NCBI GenBank assembly: GCA_951813065.1
Contig: CATOTH010000004.1
Location: 124,001 to 188,000, forward strand
Length of the DNA: 64,000 nt
Direction of reading: 5' to 3'
From: an uncultured Bryobacterales bacterium
GTDB lineage: Bacteria; Acidobacteriota; Terriglobia; Bryobacterales; UBA6623
The notes below the pieces were generated by a model. That model made no database searches. It was not told where the DNA came from and saw nothing but the letters and a program-made list of their open reading frames with translations. Shown one piece after another: positions 29,590-31,049 of the stretch (within the stretch, counting starts at the first letter, position 1; every line of letters starts with the position of its first letter). Made by a program: the position numbers and the translations under genes.

Positions 29590-30494
29590 TGAGTTCCGCC
29601 CAGCAGCACTTTCCGGTAATGGCGGACGAGATGGAGCAGTATCTGCTCGCGCCCGAGAGCCAGCGACCCGAAGGCGCCTATTGCGACTGCACAGCGGGTT
29701 CGGGCGGTTATGCCCACAGGATCCTCAGCCGCGTGGCCCGCCGCACGCTGGTTCTAATCGACCGGGACCGGGCGGCCCTGGACCGCTGTCGGCGCCGTTT
29801 CACTGGATTCGGCGACCGTGTGCGGTACTTCCACGGCGGCTTTTCACGGATCGGAGACGCCGTGAGCGGATCGGGGCCACTAGCTGGGATTGTCGCGGAT
29901 CTCGGACTGTCGCTTAAGCAGATCAACGATCCCGGGCGGGGGTTCAGCCTACGGTTGGACGGGCCCCTGGACATGCGCTTCGACTCGACCCAGGCATCGC
30001 GTGCCGAAGACTTCGTCAACCGCGGAAGCGAATCCGAGCTGGCGGACCTGCTGTATCGGCTTGCCGACGAGCACCATAGCCGGCGCATCGCGCGGGCGAT
30101 CGTGAGAGCCCGGCCCATCCGGAACACGCTGCACCTGGCTGAGACGGTCTCGGCCGCCGTTCCACGGCGTCAGCGAAGCCGAATCCATCCCGCCACCAAG
30201 ACCTTCCAGGCCCTCAGGATGGCGGTCAACGACGAGCCGGGCGAACTGGCCAGGCTGCTGGATGCTGCTCCGCGCCTGCTCGCGCCAGGCGGGCGCTTCG
30301 TGGTGGTTAGTTTCCACAGCGGTGAGGACCGCATGGTGAAGCACTCCTTCCGAAGCCAGGCCGGAACTGGAGTCTACAGGCTCATGACCCGCCGGGTGGT
30401 ACGCCCCTCGGCAACAGAGGTGGACCTGAACCCGCCCAGCCGGAGCGCCCGCTTGCGGGCGGTCTGCCGGACTCGGCAGGAGTTCACCCAATGA
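29589..30494 (+). CDS. rsmH: 16S rRNA (cytosine-1402-N4)-methyltransferase
   Basis: About 301 residues. It uses SAM to methylate N4 of C1402 in 16S rRNA. Motifs: HFPVMADEM near the N-terminus, the SAM loop DCTAGSGGYAHRIL, GIVADLGLSLKQINDPGRGFS, LDMRFD, RIHPATKTFQALRMAVNDE and VVVSFHSGEDRMVKHSFR. Residue DLGLS replaces the commoner DLGVSS/DLGLSS. ATG 29589 lies in the mraZ stop (ATGA), giving translational coupling. Confidence 0.95.
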   Translation: MSSAQQHFPVMADEMEQYLLAPESQRPEGAYCDCTAGSGGYAHRILSRVARRTLVLIDRDRAALDRCRRRFTGFGDRVRYFHGGFSRIGDAVSGSGPLAGIVADLGLSLKQINDPGRGFSLRLDGPLDMRFDSTQASRAEDFVNRGSESELADLLYRLADEHHSRRIARAIVRARPIRNTLHLAETVSAAVPRRQRSRIHPATKTFQALRMAVNDEPGELARLLDAAPRLLAPGGRFVVVSFHSGEDRMVKHSFRSQAGTGVYRLMTRRVVRPSATEVDLNPPSRSARLRAVCRTRQEFTQ

Positions 30495-30509
30495 TAAGGA
30501 TCGGTACAC

Positions 30510-31049
30510 ATGGAGAAGGAAAATAGACCGAACGCGCCGCTGCCGGAACCGGGCCAGTACGGCTGGAGCAAATCCTCCTTGCCCCAGCAAGTGCTGCGCA
30601 ACAGGCCGAGCGGCGGCGCCATTCCACGGCACCCTCCATCGACGCGAGCCGCGTCGATGGAGGGTGCCGTGCTGTACCAGAAGAGAATCGACAACAGTGG
30701 CGTCCGCTACAGGCACGACCCGCGCGACCGGGACGCCATGCGAAGGCAGATCAGCTGGGGGCTGTTTGTCGTGTTTCTGCTTGTCGTGTGGTTCGCGCCG
30801 CGCCTCTGGGTGCGGCACTTGGGATATCGAGAAGCTCAGCTGACGGAGTCGATCGCGCAGCTGGCCTTGGTCCGTGACCAGTTGAAGGTCGAGCGAGGCC
30901 GGCTCCAGGACCGCCGGCTGATTGCGGCGCGGGCGGAAACGGAAGGGCTCCAGGAGACCGACGAGGGCAGCTACACGTGGTTCGCCCCTCGCCCGGTCGA
31001 TTCAGGCTCGAAAACCGCCGTCGCGCTGCTGATTGACAGAAAGGAGTAG
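30510..31049 (+). CDS. ftsL: FtsL-like cell division protein
   Basis: A 179-residue bitopic protein. A cytoplasmic N-terminal tail of about 80 residues precedes one TM helix (ISWGLFVVFLLVVWFAPRLWV, about 82-102) and a short coiled coil (YREAQLTESIAQLALVRDQL). This topology, and its place between rsmH and ftsI, identify it as the FtsL that forms a complex with FtsQ/FtsB and activates FtsWI. AAGGA at 30496-30500 supports ATG 30510. The tail is longer than usual and contains a perfect 22-bp inverted repeat (30625-30671); ATG 30657, inside its right arm, is an alternative start giving 130 residues. Sequence identity to known FtsL is low, as is normal for this family. Confidence 0.75.
   Translation: MEKENRPNAPLPEPGQYGWSKSSLPQQVLRNRPSGGAIPRHPPSTRAASMEGAVLYQKRIDNSGVRYRHDPRDRDAMRRQISWGLFVVFLLVVWFAPRLWVRHLGYREAQLTESIAQLALVRDQLKVERGRLQDRRLIAARAETEGLQETDEGSYTWFAPRPVDSGSKTAVALLIDRKE
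30625..30671. repeat. Perfect 22-bp inverted repeat with 3-nt loop inside ftsL
   Basis: The left arm 30625-30646 starts CACGGCACCC and ends ATCGACGCG; the right arm 30650-30671 starts CGCGTCGAT and ends GGGTGCCGTG; the loop is AGC. All 22 pairs match. The stem ends at 30671 because the flanking bases 30624 and 30672 (C and C) do not pair. There is no T-tract. It encodes RHPPSTRAASMEGAV in the FtsL tail, and its right arm contains an in-frame ATG. Confidence 0.95.

Follow-up and report, generated by a model that had tools for sequence, protein, structure and literature searches.

A perfect 22-bp palindrome of probable template-switch origin beside a conserved covarying helix in the ftsL coding region of a Bryobacterales bacterium

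The window, i.e., the whole stretch of DNA analysed here, comprises 64,000 nt of contig CATOTH010000004.1 from an uncultured Bryobacterales bacterium and contains the gene order mraZ-rsmH-ftsL-ftsI-murE-murF, in which murE and murF are presumed identities taken from the translations. The name ftsL is positional and was given on the basis of this gene order and a DivIC match below threshold. The comparison set consisted of 11 genus members with ftsL (Acidobacteriota, Bryobacterales), namely the present genome and 10 congeners. They formed three deep clades in the tree. DNA identity over the locus was 62-65% between clades, and 67-69% within the clade of three members to which the present genome belongs. 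In the alignment, an N-terminal MEK with PNAPLP or KKAPP was found in nine of the 11 FtsL sequences; G007 and G002 are the two without it, and their ftsL may start at another ATG further in. The features discussed below are listed in Table 1.

Table 1. Features of the ftsL locus, in positions of the window
Feature	Position	Strand	Evidence
ftsL coding sequence, 179 aa, start ATG30510	30510-31049	+	N-terminus MEK..PNAPLP conserved in nearest congeners
P1 helix, 5' arm GCGCCGCUGCCGG, from nucleotide +25 of the coding sequence	30534-30546	+	Fold and covariation
P2, variable region enclosed by the P1 arms; sequence of inner hairpins differs by lineage	30547-30605	+	
P1 helix, 3' arm CCGAGCGGCGGCGC with a bulge at A30609; codons 33-37, its end 5 nt short of the palindrome	30606-30619	+	Fold and covariation
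Palindrome, left arm; derived inverted copy of the right arm, replaces variable linker, codons 39-46	30625-30646	+	Alignment
Palindrome, loop AGC	30647-30649	+	
Palindrome, right arm; ancestral conserved codons for (A)SMEGAV, with internal Met codon 50 (30657-30659)	30650-30671	+	Alignment

Two minor observations were made around the gene start. On the minus strand, an open frame of 289 aa runs antisense to rsmH and ftsL (window positions 29949-30818); it is probably a by-product of high GC, because stops occur in the translated antisense frames of several relatives. In congener G003 (locus L009, about 1450-1540), GAGAGAGGATCGGTTAGCAATGGAGAAGGTACTA is tandemly duplicated and includes the ribosome-binding region and the start of ftsL.

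A preliminary description of this DNA had reported a perfect 22-bp hairpin with a 3-nt loop at 30625-30671, placing it N-terminal to the membrane segment of FtsL. Both the structure and its location were confirmed: the palindrome covers codons 39-54, and its two 22-nt arms are 100% complementary. It is far beyond chance. At the search settings used, it was the only inverted repeat with separated arms in the window, and when 1.6 Mb sampled from the same genome was scanned for perfect stems of at least 12 bp with loops of at most 60 nt, it was the longest perfect inverted repeat, followed by stems of 18 and 17 bp. Among the stems of 15-18 bp in this sample, none lay clearly within a recognisable conserved gene, and in congener G008 the perfect inverted repeats reached no more than 14 bp over 0.8 Mb. 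Folding of 30490-30720 as RNA gave a z-score of -7.3, and the palindrome folded as a DNA strand gave -8.0. Against codon shuffles that preserved the protein, the z-score of the palindrome segment was -4.65, and none of 200 shuffles reached the native fold. No second copy within 3 mismatches was found elsewhere in the genome searched. An intrinsic terminator was ruled out, since neither strand of the palindrome shows a terminator-like site with a T-run tail.

Comparison with the congeners revealed a different history for the two arms. The right arm encodes the FtsL motif (S)MEGAV(LY), which is conserved in the 11-genome alignment, and at the DNA level ATGGAGGGCGCCGTG of G008 is identical to it at 14 of 15 positions. 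The left arm is situated in a hypervariable linker that differs in every lineage and has no counterpart in the congeners; only in the present genome, among the 11, is this linker the reverse complement of the right arm. When the relatives were folded, the hairpin was found in none of the 10 congeners, and the codon-shuffle z-score of the corresponding segment was near 0 in most of them. From the conserved GA/GI dipeptide in the P1 3' arm to Met50, the linker measures 12 codons here and 11-14 in the relatives. A replication-slippage insertion had been among the origins listed in the preliminary description; an origin of the slippage type agrees with these data, but because the length of the linker is unchanged the event was a replacement and not an insertion. 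The nearest relative shares only 68% DNA identity over the locus, and the linker sequence that preceded the event is therefore beyond reconstruction.

The functional proposals made for the hairpin fared less well, and the earlier reading is only partly supported overall. The in-frame ATG at 30657 does lie in the right arm, as codon 50 of the frame opened at 30510, but it is an internal Met/Ile codon rather than a start. The idea that the hairpin hides or selects a start is unsupported, because the protein upstream is conserved, including the start at 30510 (MEK in 9/11). A protein-binding cruciform likewise found no support, as the relatives keep the protein sequence of the right arm without the pairing, which is the pattern that the preliminary description itself had named as speaking against it. 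For the same reason, a role for the palindrome as such appears unlikely.

Template-switch mutation has been documented in quasipalindromes of Escherichia coli (PMC7202029) and in coding genes of yeast (PMC8604942). In these cases, one arm is overwritten by the inverted sequence of its partner, which gives a perfect palindrome, and the change can also take place in coding DNA with several adjacent codons altered. The ftsL locus carries the same footprint: one arm is homologous to the relatives, the other is its reverse complement laid over unrelated sequence, and the change is absent from the sister lineages. It differs in that the arm is 22 nt long and in that the event is deduced between species, not seen in strains, with the pre-event sequence lacking. 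The footprint suggests that the replicating polymerase switched template over a short range and copied the conserved SMEGAV codons in inverted orientation over the adjacent unconstrained linker. One mutational step could thus have produced the perfect 22-bp hairpin with frame, length and spacing kept, and fork stalling at a hairpin of the P1 type could have made the switch more likely. The palindrome is most likely a lineage-specific tolerated mutation, which is retained because nearly any in-frame residues are acceptable in the linker (here PRHPPSTR). Although ordinary in kind, it illustrates clearly how, in nature, an essential bacterial gene can carry a hairpin with one arm that is a reverse copy of conserved codons, the way in which template switching is thought to create long perfect stems. 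Perfect inverted repeats in functional protein-coding genes are also known from mitochondria of Nematomorpha (PMC6649704); however, these repeats are many, reach 284 bp and encode conserved protein in both arms, whereas ftsL has a single 22-bp repeat with one conserved arm.

Just upstream of the palindrome there is a second, previously unnoticed structure, the P1 helix, which the preliminary description had overlooked. In the present genome, P1 has 13 bp with one bulge, begins 24 nt downstream of the start codon's A and spans codons 9-37. Over the genus, its 12-13 bp close a region of 60-75 nt with lineage-specific inner hairpins, and it is kept in all 11 members over three deep lineages, a count equivalent to about three to five independent lineages. 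Scored as a homologous helix of 12 pairs in the gap-poor alignment A2 of the 11 genomes, P1 was paired in 95.2% of cells, compared with 35-66% when the arms were slid against each other. Double compensatory changes (e.g., G-C/A-U, C-G/U-A and G-C/C-G) were present in six of the 12 pairs, and none of 500 shuffles reached the covariation score. These compensatory changes alter the amino acids on both sides, Leu/Pro together with Ser/Gly. For example, within one shallow clade, G003 and G005 are set apart from G001 by a double change from C-G to U-A, which turns Pro into Leu and Gly into Ser and falls on a branch of 0.02 substitutions per site. One-sided changes occurred independently three times, each time giving G-U on the sense strand, which in this small sample favours P1 acting as sense-strand RNA. 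A 15-nt deletion beside the 3' arm in G004 was placed inside the arm by the aligner; the full complementary arm is still present there.

The 3.7-kb locus alignment and the codon-aligned sequences of 16 genes around ftsL (17.5 kb) were searched exhaustively for 10-bp helices. In both, P1 was the only helix with at least 90% pairing and at least three covarying pairs, all three such registers being P1 itself. At a pairing cut-off of 80%, other helices also reached four covarying pairs, and the case for P1 therefore rests on pairing and covariation jointly. In windowed z-scores, the 5' part of ftsL was the most structured stretch in most congeners, and codons 1-40 folded better than protein-preserving shuffles in nine of the 11 genomes (z from -1.5 to -4.3). 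In G007 and G002, the energy of P1 was unexceptional (z near 0), although most of its pairs were intact. In these two species (loci L006 and L007, respectively), the likely ftsL ATG, which follows an AAGGAG motif, is found directly beside or within the P1 5' arm, unlike in the other species. The P1-P2 element was single-copy, with no further copies in the genomes searched, and the structure had no Rfam match at threshold. The matches below threshold included Scr3202 and MIR5534; both were weak, below gathering, and were rejected as expected from a near-perfect hairpin.

Taken together, the palindrome is probably a tolerated product of template switching, and P1 is an older, genus-wide helix that probably acts as sense RNA. 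The alternative that best withstands the data, still rather unlikely, is that P1 has no selected RNA function and is a by-product of protein constraint on the APL and SGA motifs or of recurrent homogenisation by template switching. The arms do encode the only short conserved motifs of the linker, and covariation need not mean selection, because helices can also stay paired through template switching (PMC8794818). On the other hand, protein constraint does not predict compensatory pairs that exchange amino acids on both sides, and no second helix of this kind turned up in 17.5 kb. Template switching was reported as a source of RNA hairpins (PMC8794818), in which, as proposed for ftsL, a perfect stem arises in one event and compensatory changes maintain it; that study covers microRNA and rRNA genes, whereas ftsL is a bacterial protein-coding gene.

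It is less probable again, and we consider it improbable, that the palindrome itself is a selected functional element in ftsL, such as an RNase III site, a ribosome pause or a protein-binding cruciform. A perfect duplex of 22 bp is long enough for RNase III, the pairing is very stable as RNA and as DNA, and the conserved P1 adjoins it 5 nt upstream. Moreover, in Corynebacterium glutamicum RNase III is on record as cutting within the coding region of a dcw gene, mraZ, as cited in PMC7761207 (its reference 71, Maeda et al. 2016). However, the palindrome is absent from all 10 congeners, one of its arms consists of plain conserved codons, and a single mutation explains its perfection without selection. 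An artefact of assembly or sequencing, or a fold-back chimera, is very improbable: short-range inverted duplications are a known class of artefact, but here the frame is kept, the linker length is unchanged, the site is single with normal gene on both flanks, and nothing comparable stood out among the hairpins of the 1.6 Mb scanned. Insertion of a mobile palindromic element (REP, MITE or the in-frame Rickettsia type) covering the palindrome or the P1 region is hardly credible. The inverted repeats do lie within an in-frame, variable protein segment, but both the palindrome and P1-P2 are single-copy in the genomes searched instead of dispersed, and the linker is no longer than in the relatives.

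The conservation and covariation of P1 point to a sense-strand RNA structure in the ftsL mRNA, which would most likely act in cis on ftsL expression. P1, from +25 onwards, lies outside the footprint that an initiating ribosome usually covers, and simple occlusion of the start is therefore unlikely in most species. P1 may instead slow early elongation or mark a site of mRNA processing between rsmH and ftsL, and it might also serve as a binding site after initiation. FtsO lies within ftsI of E. coli. Information at the RNA level in the division and cell-wall cluster is exemplified by FtsO (PMC7815308), which is likewise an ORF-internal RNA of a dcw gene, and by the dcw-leader sRNA UpsM (PMC5089854); P1 differs from both in its place in the 5' part of ftsL, in being specific to the genus and in being known from sequence, not as a transcript or sRNA. 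A further-reaching proposal, which is possible though we lean against it, would be that the 5' coding region of ftsL in this genus carries a selected structured RNA (P1-P2, in the present species extended by the palindrome) that sets the level of a limiting division protein or cuts the dcw transcript; RNA pairing and template switching, and not protein function, would then drive how the linker evolves. If it is functional, P1 would place control at the RNA level within the coding sequence of a division gene, and a seemingly free protein linker would be constrained by base pairing. The conserved helix is a more interesting result than the neighbouring palindrome.

P1 was not found at the same place of ftsL in other genera. 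Two strong structural outliers were inspected there, and neither is P1. In L186 (G086, another genus of the order, with ftsL on the minus strand), repeat-like hairpins flank ftsL at about 1350-1440 and 1900-1990 of the reverse complement, with z-scores of -7.8 and -6.4, and are apparently intergenic. In L020 (G012, another genus of the family), a stem of 11-12 bp in ftsL at about 1400-1520 is formed by CCGGGACAACC with GGTTGTCCCGG; it lies between the variable linker and the conserved RAGLSRR codons and could possibly be another template-switch copy.
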